NCBI GenBank assembly: GCA_023267855.1
Contig: JALNLN010000014.1
Coordinates: 1-48,196, forward strand
Direction of reading: 5' to 3'
DNA from: Candidatus Geocrenenecus dongiae
GTDB taxonomy: Archaea > Thermoproteota > Nitrososphaeria_A > Caldarchaeales > Wolframiiraptoraceae
Length of the DNA stretch: 48,196 nucleotides
The position numbers and the translations under genes were made by a program. Below, in pieces: positions 14,515-21,513 of the stretch (positions are counted from its first letter, which is position 1; each line of letters begins with the position of its first letter). The notes beneath the pieces are model-generated. The model saw nothing but the letters and a program-made list of their open reading frames with translations. It searched no databases and was not told where the DNA came from.

Positions 14515-15168
14515 TTATGGAGAGAGTCTTTTCTTCAGTTTCTTGAAGGTTTCAGTAAATGTAGATATGACTGTGAATCTGTATTCTCTATCTTCATTCT
14601 GATCTTGCTGATAAGATTGTTGTAGAGGTGGAGCTATGTAGTATAGATCTACTGTCTCCATACCTCTAATCGTACTTTCCATAACTTTTCTTCTATGTAT
14701 CCCGATGGTCGTTCTTAGGGGAACAACCTTACCCTGTTTATCAATATGGTAAACTCTAAATTTTAGATCTAAAAGCCTCCTGGTTTTAGCGTATTCTAAG
14801 GGGTCTACAACCATAGCTACAGCTTTAGGGAATAAGGTTTGATATCTTTTCTGGGTCTCGATATCTATTGTTGAGAGAAATAAGTCGAATCCTGGATGTG
14901 AATGATACCATCCAACAATGTATAATCCTGGTCTCTCACGTGCAAGCCACTCATAAGTTGCTGCCATAACCTCCTCGTCAAGAAGAACAAATGCTGAAGA
15001 AGACTTCTGATCGCCTGATATAGCATCCCATATTTCAAGAACGTCTTGCTTCTTTTCATATTTTCCTATCAAGAGACCTGCTACTTCTCTTTCAAGATCT
15101 AGCAAAGTATACTTAACAACCTTACCCAAAGCTAATGGATATATCCTGACCCTCAACTCTATCTCCAC
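14515..15168 (-). CDS. Rpn11/CSN5-like JAMM metalloprotease (deubiquitinase)
   Basis: A 217-residue MPN+ protein. The complete JAMM zinc site is present: a glutamate in LEREVAGLLIG (Glu28), His89 and His91 in YHSHPG, and Asp102 in HSHPGFDLFLSTID with Ser99 in the expected place. Related proteins remove ubiquitin in the proteasome lid (Rpn11), and in Caldiarchaeum the homologue trims the ubiquitin precursor. The gene is divergent from the ubiquitin gene across a 171-base gap, so it very likely processes that precursor and recycles conjugates. The last 65 residues form a polar tail with PPLQQSYQQDQNEDREY, longer than a bare JAB domain. The GTG start has no ribosome binding site; an AATAAATTTTA element about 22 bases upstream suggests a leaderless message. 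Confidence 0.93.
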   Translation of the reverse strand: MEIELRVRIYPLALGKVVKYTLLDLEREVAGLLIGKYEKKQDVLEIWDAISGDQKSSSAFVLLDEEVMAATYEWLARERPGLYIVGWYHSHPGFDLFLSTIDIETQKRYQTLFPKAVAMVVDPLEYAKTRRLLDLKFRVYHIDKQGKVVPLRTTIGIHRRKVMESTIRGMETVDLYYIAPPLQQSYQQDQNEDREYRFTVISTFTETFKKLKKRLSP

Positions 15169-15339: not shown

Positions 15340-15582
15340 ATGAAGATAAAAGTTGTTCCTGCAGTTGGTGGTGGTAGTCCTGTAGAATTAGAAGTTACAC
15401 CAACAACCACTATAGGCGCTATTAAAGCTAAGATATGTGCTATGAAGAAGCTTCCTCCAGATACTACTAGACTAACCTTTAGGGGTAGAGCTCTTAAAGA
15501 TACTGAAACTCTGCAGGATATAGGTGTACAAGATGGAGACAAGCTTGTACTTATCACTAGGACTGTCGGTGGAAATATCTAG
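15340..15582 (+). CDS. Ubiquitin-like modifier precursor
   Basis: An 80-residue beta-grasp protein. TPTTTIGAIKAKICAMKKLP matches the ubiquitin alpha-helix region, TTRLTFRGRALKDTETLQDIGVQDGD matches the '[20 protein letters not shown]' block of ubiquitin, and the end is ITRTVGG followed by Asn79-Ile80. The Gly77-Gly78 pair must be exposed by removal of two residues, so the gene encodes a pro-ubiquitin, and the neighbouring JAMM protease is the obvious processor. Several lysines (for example 29, 31, 36, 37, 53, 68) could accept chains; none is proven. It is followed by E2, E1 and RING genes on the same strand. Similarity is closer to true ubiquitin than to SAMP/Urm1. Confidence 0.95.
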   Translation: MKIKVVPAVGGGSPVELEVTPTTTIGAIKAKICAMKKLPPDTTRLTFRGRALKDTETLQDIGVQDGDKLVLITRTVGGNI

Positions 15583-15712: not shown

Positions 15713-16207
15713 GTGTTCAGGGACTGGAAAGTGTATGCTGAACTTCCTGAATTACTTTGGTATAAGAGGTTGGCTTTAGAATACAAGTTAGTACATGAAC
15801 ATGAACCATTATTCGATATAGTTGATGGTGATTTAACTCATTATCGGGGAATAATAATAGGGGAGGGGTTGTATGAGGGTGGATATTTTAAGGTAGAGAT
15901 TCTAGTACCACGTACATTTCCCTATACACCCCCAGATGTAGTCTGGTGGACGAGGATATGGCATCCAAACTTTACAGATGAAGTTCCAGCAAGAGTATGT
16001 GAATCTGTATTGAAAGAAGACTGGTCACCGTCACTCCATATAATAACGTTAATTGAGACTTTAAGAAACCTGCTGAATAATCCTAACCCCGACGACCCGT
16101 TAAATACTATAGCTGCTATGGAGATGAAGTTTAGACCAGACATATTCCAAGCAAGAGTTAGACAGTATATTGAGCTATATGCTAGACCTGAGCAAGCTCT
16201 AAAATAA
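15713..16207 (+). CDS. Ubiquitin-conjugating enzyme E2 homologue
   Basis: A 164-residue UBC-fold protein. Canonical marks are all visible: YFKVEILVPRTFPYTPPDV (the PYxPP turn), His84-Pro85-Asn86, the catalytic Cys96 in VPARVCESVLKEDWSPS (Cys to Trp spacing as in eukaryotic E2s), and LLNNPNPDDPLN. E2 receives ubiquitin from E1 as a thioester on this Cys and passes it on with a RING protein. The HPN to Cys distance is two residues longer than in UbcH5-type enzymes. GTG start at 15713 with a leaderless-type promoter. It lies between the ubiquitin and E1 genes. Confidence 0.95.
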   Translation: MFRDWKVYAELPELLWYKRLALEYKLVHEHEPLFDIVDGDLTHYRGIIIGEGLYEGGYFKVEILVPRTFPYTPPDVVWWTRIWHPNFTDEVPARVCESVLKEDWSPSLHIITLIETLRNLLNNPNPDDPLNTIAAMEMKFRPDIFQARVRQYIELYARPEQALK

Positions 16208-16270: not shown

Positions 16271-17449
16271 ATGCCGAGTCTAGAGAGATATGATAGACAG
16301 ATGAGGGTTGAGGGATGGGATCAAGAGAATCTATTGAAAGCAGGAGTCTTGGTAGTAGGTGTTGGAGCTACAGGCTGTGAACTAGCAAAGAATCTTACAT
16401 TAATGGGTTTAGGAAACCTAATACTTGTAGATAACGATGTAGTAGAATTATCGAATCTAAGTAGGCAGATGCTTTTCACAGATGAAGACATTGGAAAACC
16501 TAAAGTTAGAGTAGCTAAAGAAAAACTACTCAAAATGAACCCTCTAGTGAAAATTGAAGATTACTATGAAGATGTTAGGAAGCTTGACCCAGAAATCTTT
16601 GAAAAAGTTGACGTTATCTGTTCATGTCTAGATAATTGGCCTGTTAGGAGATGGGTTAATTCTATAGCAGTAGAATTCAATAAACCATTAGTAGATATCT
16701 CGATGGAAGGATTGTATGCAAATCTACAAACAGTCATACCTGGAAAAACAGCTTGTCTAGAATGCTATGGTGAAGAACTTATTCCAAGAGAGATACAGTT
16801 AGCAGAATGTACTTTAAGAAGAAGGAGGCCGGAAGATTTAGTAAAAGATCTGGAAGAATTGAACATAAAAATAAATTTAGATTTGGCTGAAAAATTATTT
16901 GAAGCTGGGATAAAGACACTCTACGATCTAAAATATTCTCAAGCTCAAGTCTTAGAGAAAATTGATAATGATGTTAGAGAGAAAGTACGTGAGATACAAG
17001 AACTCTTAAAGCCTAAAACGCCGGCTCTTCAAAGCATCGCAGCCACGATATCAGGTATAGCTACAACAGAAGTAGTAAAGATTCTACACTCCGAGAATCT
17101 GGGAAAGATCTTTAGCGGACTCCTAGTCTACGATGGATATTTCTCAAGATTTACAATCATAAAATTGAAGAGAAAGGAAGAATGTTTTGTATGTGGAGAT
17201 TACGTGAAGACTGAGGGCACATATCTAGAGGTAGGTATAGATGAAACCATACTTGATTTAAAGAAGAAGATCGCTGAAACATTTGGGTTCCCAGATCCAG
17301 AGATACTTTACAAGAAGTGGAAGCCGGATGATTCTAAAACTCTTAGAGAGCTTTCAGTAGAGAATGGAGACGTGATATACGTTGAGACAAGTAGAAGATT
17401 TACACCATTACCAGTAAAGCTTCTCTTAACAGATAACATCAAAAAATAA
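16271..17449 (+). CDS. Ubiquitin-activating enzyme E1-like protein with C-terminal beta-grasp domain
   Basis: A 392-residue ThiF/MoeB/E1 protein. The adenylation domain has the ATP loop VVGVGATGCELAKNL (about 28-42), LVDNDVVELSNLSRQMLF with the arginine finger, and LDNWPVRRWVN. Structural zinc cysteines are Cys162/Cys165 (CLEC) and Cys305/Cys308 (CFVC). The likely thioester cysteine is Cys180 in AECTLRRRRPEDL. Between about 190 and 250 there is a helical insertion (LAEKLFEAGIKTLYDL). From about 316 a ubiquitin-fold domain follows (TYLEVGIDETILDLKKKIAE, SVENGDVIYVET), the position of the E2-binding UFD of eukaryotic E1. It would adenylate the processed ubiquitin and load the neighbouring E2. 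A TATA-like AAGTATATT near 16226-16234 may give it its own promoter. Confidence 0.93.
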   Translation: MPSLERYDRQMRVEGWDQENLLKAGVLVVGVGATGCELAKNLTLMGLGNLILVDNDVVELSNLSRQMLFTDEDIGKPKVRVAKEKLLKMNPLVKIEDYYEDVRKLDPEIFEKVDVICSCLDNWPVRRWVNSIAVEFNKPLVDISMEGLYANLQTVIPGKTACLECYGEELIPREIQLAECTLRRRRPEDLVKDLEELNIKINLDLAEKLFEAGIKTLYDLKYSQAQVLEKIDNDVREKVREIQELLKPKTPALQSIAATISGIATTEVVKILHSENLGKIFSGLLVYDGYFSRFTIIKLKRKEECFVCGDYVKTEGTYLEVGIDETILDLKKKIAETFGFPDPEILYKKWKPDDSKTLRELSVENGDVIYVETSRRFTPLPVKLLLTDNIKK

Positions 17450-17526: not shown

Positions 17527-17796
17527 TTGAAGAGGATAAAAATTGGTAAGCCTATATGTAGAGGTTTCTGGAATCCTTGGAGTGTAGAAGAGATCAAAAA
17601 GACTCCCGTAATTCCTCCTAAACCTGAAGCTAGGCAGGTATGTGTTATCTGTTTATCAGAAATAGGTGAGGGTGCTTCAACTACAGAGTGCCCGTACTGT
17701 GGAGCAATAGGGCATAAAAATTGTTTCGATGAATGGATCGTTCTCAGAGGTAAATGCCCCCTCTGTAGAAAAATACTGACGCCAACATCTACGTAA
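17527..17796 (+). CDS. Small RING-finger protein (candidate E3)
   Basis: An 89-residue soluble protein. Zinc ligands are Cys39, Cys42, Cys55, Cys58, His63, Cys66, Cys77 and Cys80: C-X2-C-X12-C-X2-C-X4-H-X2-C-X10-C-X2-C, with a Trp at 70 (CFDEW) and CPLC at the end, as in RING domains. This corresponds to the 'srfp' gene of the Caldiarchaeum ubiquitin cluster. RINGs bring E2~ubiquitin to the target. A basic, Pro-rich N-terminus (residues 1-37) may bind targets. TTG start at 17527; a TACATATATC element at 17488-17497 can act as promoter. A membrane-bound paralogue follows at 19241. Confidence 0.88.
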   Translation: MKRIKIGKPICRGFWNPWSVEEIKKTPVIPPKPEARQVCVICLSEIGEGASTTECPYCGAIGHKNCFDEWIVLRGKCPLCRKILTPTST

Positions 17797-17889: not shown

Positions 17890-18285
17890 GTGAGAGATTT
17901 GCTTAGCTCTAAACCTACGAAGAAAGATGAAGAGAAAGTGGAGATAGAGATCATACCAGAATATCTTGATACTCCTACGGGGAAGAAAGTTGCAACTTTC
18001 GAGTTTGCGATGAGTTTAGCTAAAGCATTAGAAGTTCTTGATGAAGCTGAAGCATCTCTAGAAGAAAGGATTGAAAAAATTGAGAAAGGTGAACATTTAT
18101 CTAAGTTCTTTGAGAAGATGGAAGCTAGGATAAGTGTGATAGAGAAAGTTTTATCAGATTTAGAAAAGAATATTCAAACAGAGATCGGAGATCTCTCCGA
18201 CAAACTCTCAGCATTGATAGATGCATTCCACGAACTTGCAGAAAGGGTTCAGAGAATTGAAGAATTACTTCAAGGGCTGAGATAA
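17890..18285 (+). CDS. Small acidic coiled-coil protein downstream of the RING gene, unknown
   Basis: A 131-residue protein starting at GTG 17890. Residues 1-30 are polar (KPTKKDEEKVEIEIIPEYL). From about 40 to the end it is heptad-rich helix: LAKALEVLDEAEASLEERIE, ARISVIEKVLSDLEK, LSALIDAFHELAERVQRIEELL. It has no cysteine and no membrane segment. It lies between the soluble RING gene and the membrane RING gene and converges with a second coiled-coil gene with a 16-base 3' overlap. A scaffold or ubiquitination-target role is an inference from position only. Confidence 0.6.
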   Translation: MRDLLSSKPTKKDEEKVEIEIIPEYLDTPTGKKVATFEFAMSLAKALEVLDEAEASLEERIEKIEKGEHLSKFFEKMEARISVIEKVLSDLEKNIQTEIGDLSDKLSALIDAFHELAERVQRIEELLQGLR

Positions 18286-19121
18286 GCTCTCCTTAAATCA
18301 GCTAACAATTTCTCTAATCTAGCCCTTTTATCTTCTAATTCTCTAATCTCTGTCTCTAGTCTTCTCTTTCTCTCTGTTAGAGAGGTTACTTCAGCTTTAA
18401 GTTGAGTCAATTTCTTATCAAAGTCGGCTAGTGTTTCTTCTTTTTCTTTAAGTTTAGCTAGAGATTCTTTTAACTCAGCTTCCCTCCTAACAAGCCTTTC
18501 AAGCCTTATCTCTCTAAGCTTAAAATCTCTCATCATCTCCTTAACCATCTCTTCCAATTTGCTCCTAGCCTCTTCTATACCTCCAAGATATCTTTGAGAT
18601 AACTCTGAAACTCTTTGCTCGAGATCCCTCTTTCTCTCTTCAAGATCCTTCAATTCTTCTTCCCTCAAAATCAAATGTTTTTCTTTAGCTTCAAGTTCTT
18701 CACGCCATTTCTTCATTTCTTCTCTCATAGCTTCAAGCTCAGTCTTCTCTTTCATTAATTGCTGTACTTCTTGACGTATAAGCTCTCTTTCTTTATTCAA
18801 AACCTCAACAACATCTTTAATCCCCTCCTGGACAGAGAGCAACATGTTCTCATAGTATCTAACTATGGTTAATTCTTCAGAGATCTTCTCAAGCTTCTCT
18901 ATAAATGGGTTTATCTGATTTTCGAACTGTTTTGGAAGTGAAGCTGTAAGAGATAGAAGAGATGCAAGCTTATCTATCCCAAGCTTAATCTCATTAAGGA
19001 CTTGGAGATTGTTATTGATTTTCTCAATTAACTCTAATCTGAGATGGGAGATCTCAGAAGAAAACTTTTGTTCAAGTTCTTCCAGCCACTTCTCTTTCTT
19101 CGAAGAAGTAAATATACTCAT
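18270..19121 (-). CDS. Long coiled-coil protein, unknown
   Basis: I choose ATG 19121 (MSIFTSSKKEKWLEELEQKF). A longer frame to 19214 adds a hydrophobic stretch read out of AT-rich intergenic DNA. The protein is 283 residues, almost entirely charged helix with heptads (LMKEKTELEAMREEMKKWRE, EEELKDLEERKRDLEQRVSE, LTERKRRLETEIRELEDKRA). It resembles a short SMC/Rad50-like or tropomyosin-like rod without an ATPase head. No cysteines or membrane segments are visible. It overlaps the 131-aa coiled-coil gene tail to tail and is divergent from the membrane RING gene with a 119-base gap. General 'coiled coil' is all that can be claimed. Confidence 0.62.
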   Translation of the reverse strand: MSIFTSSKKEKWLEELEQKFSSEISHLRLELIEKINNNLQVLNEIKLGIDKLASLLSLTASLPKQFENQINPFIEKLEKISEELTIVRYYENMLLSVQEGIKDVVEVLNKERELIRQEVQQLMKEKTELEAMREEMKKWREELEAKEKHLILREEELKDLEERKRDLEQRVSELSQRYLGGIEEARSKLEEMVKEMMRDFKLREIRLERLVRREAELKESLAKLKEKEETLADFDKKLTQLKAEVTSLTERKRRLETEIRELEDKRARLEKLLADLRRAYLSP

Positions 19122-19240: not shown

Positions 19241-19948
19241 TTGATTGTTACTCAGGAAGAATATATGTCAAGATTGTTTAAGCTTGGAGCAGGTGCCGCT
19301 GTTGTTGGAGCAGTACATATTCTTACCTTATTACTTGGATGGTATGTAGAAGTAGATGAGGGAAGAGTACTAACTTTAACAGGATACAGTTTCTTTGAAT
19401 CTTTTCTCTTCTCTACTGTAGGTGGGCTTATCGCAGGTCTAGGTTTACTGATAGCATATACATTAAAGAAAGTATATCATGTAAAGAATGTTTTAGGTGG
19501 GTTAGCAACTGTTGGAGGATCGCTGGCCATAGCTTCACCACTCTACACGTATGTCTTCCGTATCAATGCTCTAGGATTGAAAGGATACCCAGATATAGGC
19601 ATGTTTATCGCAATCTTCACATCACTTATACAGTTTACAGTGGGCTTAATAATCCTACTCACACCCATAAAACAGGAAGTCGTACTACCAACAGAATTTG
19701 AACTACCTCCAACACTTCCAGAAACATATACAGTACCTCCAGCTACAACTAGGAGGAGAGAAGTCGCCCGCATAATTCAAGCAGAAGATGTAGAAGAAGG
19801 AATATGTACAATATGTTACTATCCATTAAGTAGGGAAGATGCAGTAAAGTGTAGTGCCTGCGGCGCCCTATTCCATAGAGATTGTATAGATGCATGGGTT
19901 AGCATAAACCACATATGTCCAGGGTGTAAAGCATATGTTTACGAATAG
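19241..19948 (+). CDS. Membrane-anchored RING-finger protein (candidate membrane E3)
   Basis: A 235-residue protein with about four transmembrane segments (near 16-34, 54-72, 84-103 and 120-141), then a cytoplasmic-looking Pro/Thr-rich linker (150-172), then a RING at the C-terminus. Ligands are Cys189, Cys192, Cys204, Cys207, His212, Cys215, Cys226 and Cys229: C-X2-C-X11-C-X2-C-X4-H-X2-C-X10-C-X2-C. This is almost the spacing of the soluble RING at 17527, with Trp219 in the same position. The domain order resembles eukaryotic membrane E3 ligases of ER quality control. TTG start at 19241; an in-frame ATG at 19265 is possible. The gene is the last of the ubiquitin district, just before glyS. 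E3 activity is inferred. Confidence 0.82.
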   Translation: MIVTQEEYMSRLFKLGAGAAVVGAVHILTLLLGWYVEVDEGRVLTLTGYSFFESFLFSTVGGLIAGLGLLIAYTLKKVYHVKNVLGGLATVGGSLAIASPLYTYVFRINALGLKGYPDIGMFIAIFTSLIQFTVGLIILLTPIKQEVVLPTEFELPPTLPETYTVPPATTRRREVARIIQAEDVEEGICTICYYPLSREDAVKCSACGALFHRDCIDAWVSINHICPGCKAYVYE

Positions 19949-20043
19949 ACCTAGAATAGGCTACGGAGACTGACGGCCACTTTCTAGTTAAGATATTTAG
20001 GGAAACACATATATGATCCATGAATTTTTTGAAATCCTGGAAT

Positions 20044-21513
20044 ATGAGCAAGACCAGTGAACAAAAACATGATATGGTTATGAGGTTAGCATTGGAAAGA
20101 GGTTTCTTCTTCCCAGCTTCAGAGATCTATAGTGATGCACCTGCAGGCTTCTGGGATTACGGTCCACTTGGAACATCTCTCAAGAAGAAGTTTATAGAAA
20201 TTTGGAGAAGAGAACTTGTAAAGAGAGACGATATGATAGAGATAGATGGAGCTCAGGTTCTCTCTAGAAATGTTTTCATAGCTTCAGGACACCTAGAAAG
20301 CTTCGTAGATCCAATAGCGAGATGCAGTAAATGTAAAGCCATACATAGAATCGATAAACTTATCGAAGAAGAGACCGGGATACATGTACCAGAACGTCTA
20401 AACTTAAATGAAATAATTGAAATAGTTAAAGAGAAAAATGTTAGGTGCCCTATTTGTAGAGGGGAACTCGTAGACTTCTCATACTTTAACATGATGTTTA
20501 AGTTAAGTATTGGGGCAGGTGGGCTGGAGGCGTATCTTCGCCCGGAAACTTGTCAAAGTATATTCGTAGACTTTCTGAGATTGTTCAGGGTGATGAGATG
20601 TAAGCTTCCTATAGGTTTCGCTCAGATAGGTAAGAGCTTCCGTAATGAAATCTCTCCAAGGCAGGGTCTACTTAGAATGAGAGAATTCTATCAAGCAGAA
20701 ATAGAAGTATTCTTTAACCCGAAGAAAGCTAACAATCATCCTAAAGCTGAACCTTTAATGGATTACAAACTTAGGCTGATGCCTTATGGCTCAAGAGGAA
20801 TACTAGACATATCTTGTAGAGATGCTTTAGAACAGAAGCTAATATCCAGCAAACTTGTAGCATACTATCTAGCATTGATACAACAATTCTACGAGAAGAT
20901 TGGGATACCTAGAGAGAAGATTAGACTTAGAGAGCTTGGTGAAGATGAAAGAGCATTCTACGCTATTGAAGCATGGGATCTAGAAGTAGAGACAAGTCTA
21001 GGATGGATAGAGCTTGTAGCATGCAATAATAGAGGTGGATACGATCTGGGAGGTCACCAGAGAGTTAGTGGACATGAAATGACAGTTGTAGATGATGGTG
21101 AAAAAGTTCTTCCACACATCTTCGAGCTATCTATGGGGATAGATAGAAGCCTATACTGTATAATAGAGCTTGGATTACAGAATGGAGGTAGAAACATATT
21201 GAAGATAAATCCAGAGCTATCACCAGTACAGGTTGCTGTCCTACCACTTATCTCCAAAGAACCTCTAGTAAGTAAAGCATTAGAGATATACGAAATGTTG
21301 AAGCAAGAGTATGACGTGGTTTATGATGAATCTGGAAGCATAGGTAGGAGATATATGAGACAAGATGAAATAGGTACACCATACTGCATTACAATAGATC
21401 ACCAAACCCTCGAAGATGGTACAGTAACAATTAGAGAAAGAGATACAACCCACCAAATAAGAATAAAGATCTCCGAGCTACAGGAATTCCTAAGATCAAG
21501 ATTCAAGAAATAG
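20044..21513 (+). CDS. glyS: Glycyl-tRNA synthetase (archaeal/eukaryal alpha2 type)
   Basis: A class II synthetase. I take ATG 20044 (MSKTSEQKHDMVMRLALERG) because a TATA element, ACATATATG, at 20005-20013 lies too close to the ATG at 20020. From 20044 it is 489 residues, somewhat short for archaeal GlyRS. Motifs: FFFPASEIYSDAPAGFWDYGPLG, zinc-type CSKC and CPIC pairs in the insertion, motif 2 IGKSFRNEISPRQGLLRMREF, YDLGGHQRVSGHEM, and a C-terminal anticodon-binding domain (VQVAVLPLISKEPLV, DEIGTPYCITID). It charges tRNA-Gly. Confidence 0.95.
   Translation: MSKTSEQKHDMVMRLALERGFFFPASEIYSDAPAGFWDYGPLGTSLKKKFIEIWRRELVKRDDMIEIDGAQVLSRNVFIASGHLESFVDPIARCSKCKAIHRIDKLIEEETGIHVPERLNLNEIIEIVKEKNVRCPICRGELVDFSYFNMMFKLSIGAGGLEAYLRPETCQSIFVDFLRLFRVMRCKLPIGFAQIGKSFRNEISPRQGLLRMREFYQAEIEVFFNPKKANNHPKAEPLMDYKLRLMPYGSRGILDISCRDALEQKLISSKLVAYYLALIQQFYEKIGIPREKIRLRELGEDERAFYAIEAWDLEVETSLGWIELVACNNRGGYDLGGHQRVSGHEMTVVDDGEKVLPHIFELSMGIDRSLYCIIELGLQNGGRNILKINPELSPVQVAVLPLISKEPLVSKALEIYEMLKQEYDVVYDESGSIGRRYMRQDEIGTPYCITIDHQTLEDGTVTIRERDTTHQIRIKISELQEFLRSRFKK

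Follow-up and report, generated by a model that had tools for sequence, protein, structure and literature searches.

A predicted membrane-anchored RING-H2 protein beside the ubiquitin operon of Caldarchaeales is a probable E3 ligase

Introduction

The ubiquitin neighbourhood of Candidatus Geocrenenecus dongiae encodes, in addition to a small soluble RING protein, a second RING-H2 protein that is predicted to be held in the membrane by four helices and that is probably a membrane-anchored E3 ligase of the archaeal ubiquitin cascade. For this protein, here called mRING, we infer E2 binding, E3 activity and substrates. Ubiquitination at membranes is usually linked to organelles and trafficking, and the archaeal cascade has so far been studied with a single small soluble E3. 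If mRING is a ligase, membrane ubiquitination can exist in a prokaryote, which suggests that microbes lacking internal membranes may have tagged proteins with ubiquitin at their cell membrane. It would also provide a natural substrate class for the reconstituted, thermostable cascade of C. subterraneum, and the claim is open to direct test with proteins of the kind already expressed.

Results

mRING joins a four-helix membrane module to a RING-H2 domain

The window, by which we mean the whole stretch of 48,196 nucleotides that was analysed, represents a single contig; the genome it comes from measures 1.44 Mb (98% complete) and belongs to the Caldarchaeales, an order of heat-loving hot-spring archaea with a eukaryote-like ubiquitin system, formerly called Aigarchaeota. 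Its ubiquitin genes and their neighbours follow one another in the order JAMM (minus strand), Ub, E2, E1, sRING, cc131, cc314 (minus strand), mRING, GlyRS (Table 1). The mRING product is 235 amino acids long and begins with a TTG codon, in an alignment column where its orthologues also start, with either ATG or TTG. A scan for promoters and terminators returned nothing above chance. That mRING is an artefact is ruled out by its 41 orthologues.

Table 1. Features of the ubiquitin neighbourhood in the window (positions counted from its first base)
Feature	Position	Strand	Remarks
JAMM/Rpn11-like deubiquitinase	14515..15168	-	
Pro-ubiquitin	15340..15582	+	Ends in GG-NI
E2 (UQ_con)	15713..16207	+	HPN, catalytic Cys, loop 4 PYTPP, loop 7 WSPS
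E1-like ubiquitin-activating enzyme	16271..17449	+	ThiF domain
sRING	17527..17796	+	Small, soluble RING-H2 protein; orthologous to srfp of C. subterraneum
cc131	17890..18285	+	Coiled-coil protein adjoining sRING, kept across the order
cc314	18270..19121	-	Coiled-coil protein, divergent from mRING, kept across the order
TTTATAAA	19195..19202	+	TATA-box-like, 39-46 bases upstream of the mRING start; count not above chance
mRING	19241..19948	+	Four-helix membrane protein with C-terminal RING-H2 domain
mRING membrane module	19253..19660	+	Residues 5-140; AlphaFold2; Foldseek claudin/TARP fold
mRING linker	19661..19795	+	Largely disordered in the model, differs among species
mRING RING-H2 domain	19805..19930	+	C189-K230; I191, W219, P227; Lys at linchpin position
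GlyRS	20020..21513	+	Constant neighbour downstream of mRING

The RING of mRING has the ligand spacing C-x2-C-x11-C-x2-C-x4-H-x2-C-x10-C-x2-C, with x11 where the soluble RING at 17527 (sRING) has x12, and a C-x-D-x-W segment is common to the two (CIDAW and CFDEW). It matched Pfam zf-RING_2 at 39.4 bits (E=7e-10; Pfam cut-off, 27.3 bits). The best PDB sequence match of mRING was the Arkadia RING (2e-8), and RING-H2 E3s made up all the nearest PDB relatives of the domain, among them Arkadia, RNF38, gp78 and Hrd1.

An AlphaFold2 model of full mRING, built with 20 orthologues (mean pLDDT 85.9), predicts helices at residues 5-31, 52-73, 78-111 and 119-140, a beta hairpin (33-47) joining helices 1 and 2, and a disordered linker (149-172) that precedes the RING; modelled alone, the membrane module reached a pLDDT of 95.2 and a pTM of 0.87. 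Lysine and arginine cluster at the N-terminus and in the loop between helices 2 and 3, and the first outer loop has few of them; by the positive-inside rule this bias places the RING in the cytoplasm. On these predictions mRING would be an integral membrane protein with a cytoplasmic RING. The preliminary description of this DNA had read about four membrane helices, a linker and a RING in one protein, and the model, the zf-RING_2 match and the 41 orthologues agree with it. Its one-residue difference in ligand spacing and its common C-x-D-x-W segment are evident in the sequence pattern, and its central proposal, that the second RING is membrane-anchored, is borne out by the four predicted helices and their conservation across the order.

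The membrane module resembles claudins in topology

For the membrane module, searches of Pfam, NCBIfam and PDB yielded no meaningful relatives by sequence. In a Foldseek comparison against PDB, claudins, TARPs and Cav-gamma subunits filled the best 50 places, with probabilities of 0.98-1.0, TM scores by query of up to 0.64 and a best E of 2e-3. In these proteins, as in mRING, a beta element lies between the first two of four helices. In contrast, no sequence homology links mRING to the claudin superfamily (Pfam, PDB), and of the W-GLW-C-C signature of that superfamily it lacks the C-C pair, although a W and a G at mRING residues 34 and 48 are invariant. The modelled likeness to the claudin fold is a resemblance of topology. 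A membrane domain of Hrd1/Doa10 type was likewise not recovered, as the module's best Foldseek matches were all of claudin/TARP type.

mRING is conserved across Caldarchaeales

Relatives at 57-61% identity belong to Candidatus Geocrenenecus and to Aigarchaeota/Nitrososphaerales MAGs, which places the window in Caldarchaeales. A profile search recovered full-length mRING from 41 of 44 Caldarchaeales genomes, spanning four families. The remaining 354 genomes of the phylum sample contained no full-length copy, and their four profile matches were RING-only. The E2 was found in all 44 Caldarchaeales genomes. Within this sample mRING was confined to genomes with E1, E2 and Ub (41/44 vs 0/354), a co-occurrence that, judged from sequence, would make mRING part of the Caldarchaeales ubiquitin system; since mRING is restricted to a single clade, its co-occurrence with the E2 is not independent evidence. 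No viral copies of mRING were found in the search.

The membrane modules of the orthologues are 28-62% identical to that of the window. A profile of the module alone recovered the same 41 proteins and nothing further in the 398 genomes of the phylum, with no relatives free of a RING among them, so that in this phylum the module is known only fused to a RING. In most Caldarchaeales genomes the zf-RING_2 genes number exactly two, for a soluble and a membrane-bound protein, and none were found in 14 control genomes. In a RING tree, which rests on only 48 columns, 41 mRINGs and 35 sRINGs fell on opposite sides of one branch (98/90), a split indicating that both paralogue groups predate Caldarchaeales.

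Three Caldarchaeales genomes yielded no mRING. One (G037) has no assembled GlyRS locus, and the assembly of another (G020) is broken into short contigs. The third (G005; 95% complete) has E1, E2, Ub and sRING. Homology between this genome and a 91% identical sister breaks off shortly after cc314 and returns about 10 bases beyond the expected end of mRING, and unrelated DNA and an assembly gap take the place of the gene (L075 1-740; L124 1-158). Here mRING was likely genuinely lost and the cascade kept, and this probable loss would make mRING dispensable for keeping the cascade.

mRING adjoins the ubiquitin operon and pairs with GlyRS

Wolframiiraptoraceae, Caldarchaeaceae and family f3 keep all of these genes together as one block. 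Calditenuaceae (family f2) have JAMM-Ub-E2-E1 at another site, with sRING-cc131-cc314-mRING-GlyRS still together, and in Calditenuis mRING-GlyRS is also split from sRING-cc131-cc314. GlyRS is the immediate same-strand neighbour of mRING in 38 of the 40 loci retrieved, often within 60 bases, and the two may be co-transcribed. Given this pairing, and the opposite-strand gene that separates mRING from Ub-E2-E1-sRING, mRING neighbours the Ub operon without being a member of it. Its proposed membership of the locus therefore stands in part: it shares the Ub neighbourhood, but forms a unit separate from the Ub operon, divergent from the coiled-coil gene and adjoining GlyRS.

Several further features of these loci were observed. 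The two coiled-coil genes between the RINGs, cc131 and cc314, stay with sRING even when Ub, E2 and E1 are elsewhere (L021-L040, L075-L112); no family name fits either, and they may be adaptors of the ligases. The GlyRS beside mRING is far more divergent in family f3 and in Calditenuaceae genus g6 (L029, L030, L035, L036, L039; E about 1e-106 to 1e-140, vs 1e-190 or better elsewhere), and may be another type of GlyRS occupying the same site. Some genomes of genus g4 (Terraquivivens; L090, L092, L093) have a gap of about 0.8-2 kb between E2 and E1, so that the core operon is interrupted there. Other genomes of the phylum, from families f20 and f48 (L113, L114), have JAMM-Ub-E2-E1 clusters with a long JAMM gene of about 530 codons and no RING pattern near them.

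E2-contact residues are retained in mRING and diverge in the sRING of Calditenuaceae

Three RING positions, an Ile after the first Cys, a Trp and a Pro, touch the E2 in known complexes. In mRING these are Ile or Leu in 41/41 sequences, Trp in 38/41 (Tyr in the other 3) and Pro in 41/41, as would be expected of a RING that has kept its E2 contacts, and the E2 of the window keeps its RING-facing loops. The eight zinc ligands of a RING-H2 domain (C3H2C3) are present by strict pattern in 40 of the 41, and the 41st carries a 2-residue insertion. Neither of the observations that would have spoken jointly against a ligase, a RING devoid of an E2-binding surface and homologues occurring freely in archaea without E1, E2 and Ub, was made in the phylum sample.

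The residue after the last Cys (the linchpin, where an Arg or Lys, or else an Asn, is expected of a RING-H2 ligase) is K, R or N in 24 sequences, G in 15 and Q in 2, with Lys in the window. Gly occupies this position in all 12 Calditenuaceae mRINGs and in all 3 from the genus Caldiarchaeum, where the Trp is also replaced by Tyr (3/3). In Calditenuaceae, mRING retains Ile, Trp and Pro, and sRING keeps R or K at the linchpin and has Ala or Val for Ile (9/9; Ala in 8/9) and Leu for Trp (9/9; L034-L037, L039, L095-L097, L112). Loop 7 of the E2 has changed in this family from WSPS to WYPN or similar. The RING contrast, which rests on one or two evolutionary events, suggests that in Calditenuaceae mRING may be the better E2 partner, or that the two RINGs may act as a pair.

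Discussion

As a membrane-anchored ligase, mRING would act at the end of a short cascade. The JAMM protease would mature ubiquitin, and E1 would activate it and then load the single E2. E2~Ub would dock on the cytoplasmic RING of mRING through I191, W219 and P227, and ubiquitin would be transferred to lysine residues on membrane proteins or on proteins close to the membrane, with the four-helix module or the flexible linker holding substrates. Proteins so tagged might then be deubiquitinated, or be handed to Cdc48 and the proteasome or to ESCRT-III. The Gly linchpin in Calditenuaceae and Caldiarchaeum (in the latter with Tyr for Trp), the position outside the Ub operon with GlyRS as the constant partner, the probable loss in G005 and the restriction to a single clade are points against this reading. 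It is conceivable, though we lean against it, that the Caldarchaeales ancestor ran a soluble and a membrane ligase, the latter with a claudin-like substrate receptor, and that in Calditenuaceae the two form a complementary pair in which the membrane branch is the main or only E2-competent one.

mRING could also be read as a non-catalytic or partial RING that anchors sRING or the E2 at the membrane in a mixed pair, each partner supplying the other's deficit. The Calditenuaceae sRING lacks the Ile and Trp but has its linchpin, and mRING is the opposite (Gly 12/12); E2 loop 7 is altered in the same family (SPS to YPN), and mRING and sRING mostly remain together there though Ub, E2 and E1 are elsewhere. 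We nevertheless consider a mixed pair unlikely, as it draws on no more than one or two evolutionary events, Wolframiiraptoraceae have two seemingly complete RINGs, and the two genes are apart in Calditenuis. There is also a slim chance that the RING has no ubiquitin function and serves instead as a zinc-binding module for interactions, in a membrane or translation-linked role with GlyRS, as RING-like folds are able to serve other roles and the same-strand GlyRS is adjacent in 38/40 loci, including those where the Ub genes are elsewhere. This is difficult to reconcile with an E2-contact triad kept across 41 sequences and with the confinement of mRING to a clade with E2; moreover, GlyRS is universal and mRING is not.

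The preliminary description had raised an ERAD-like function, which in its full form would make mRING a prokaryotic Hrd1/Doa10-type ligase, pulling misfolded membrane proteins out so that they can be degraded. The genomes do combine a membrane RING-H2 protein with Cdc48-N proteins (45/45), proteasome subunits and ESCRT-III (Snf7 family) genes (42/45). However, Cdc48 and proteasome genes are general archaeal genes that also occur in control archaea without this ubiquitin system, and the four-helix module matches only claudin/TARP types among the best 50. As the module is unlike Hrd1, an ERAD-like role finds no support beyond the presence of the Cdc48-N, proteasome and ESCRT-III genes, and we regard it as very improbable.

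Relation to described systems

The ubiquitin of genome G024 matches two solved 'ubiquitin-like protein' chains (2mqj and 6fnn), which we take to be CsUb, and this genome can be assigned with near certainty to C. subterraneum itself or to a very near relative. It has exactly two zf-RING_2 genes, and its mRING is 1.3 kb from sRING, which puts mRING beside the operon from which the C. subterraneum cascade was reconstituted in vitro with one small RING, srfp, as E3 (Hennell James 2017; PMC5654768). As reported in that study, this soluble RING, the sRING orthologue, works with such E1, E2 and Ub in vitro, and mRING is not among the five genes studied. The two proteins are both RING-H2, share a neighbourhood and would share the same E2; srfp differs in being small and soluble and in belonging to a separate paralogue group (98/90), whereas mRING has a four-helix module, x11 in place of x12 spacing in the window species, and its own unit adjoining GlyRS.

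A count of two RINGs in C. subterraneum is mentioned by Fuchs 2018 (PMC6043591), and since G024 has exactly two zf-RING_2 genes, this count very probably includes the mRING orthologue (G024:C1:1440439-1441119); in the available text we found nothing on how it is anchored in the membrane, how far it is conserved or what it does. Grau-Bove 2015, whose available text does not mention architecture, gives as many as nine zf-RING_2 genes for a single aigarchaeote genome; our zf-RING_2 count did not reproduce this figure. Two RING genes in C. subterraneum were thus already known. Within the portions of the literature covered by our search we found neither the membrane architecture nor the order-wide conservation nor the divergence pattern described, nor anything on membrane RINGs in the Ub loci of Asgard archaea. 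Eukaryotic membrane RING-H2 E3s (Hrd1, gp78, ATL, ZNRF3) share with mRING the placement of membrane segments before a cytoplasmic RING-H2 domain, and the RING itself is similar in sequence to those of gp78, ZNRF3 and Hrd1. In contrast, the membrane module of mRING is unrelated in sequence to those of the eukaryotic E3s, being claudin-like and unlike the multi-helix domain of Hrd1.
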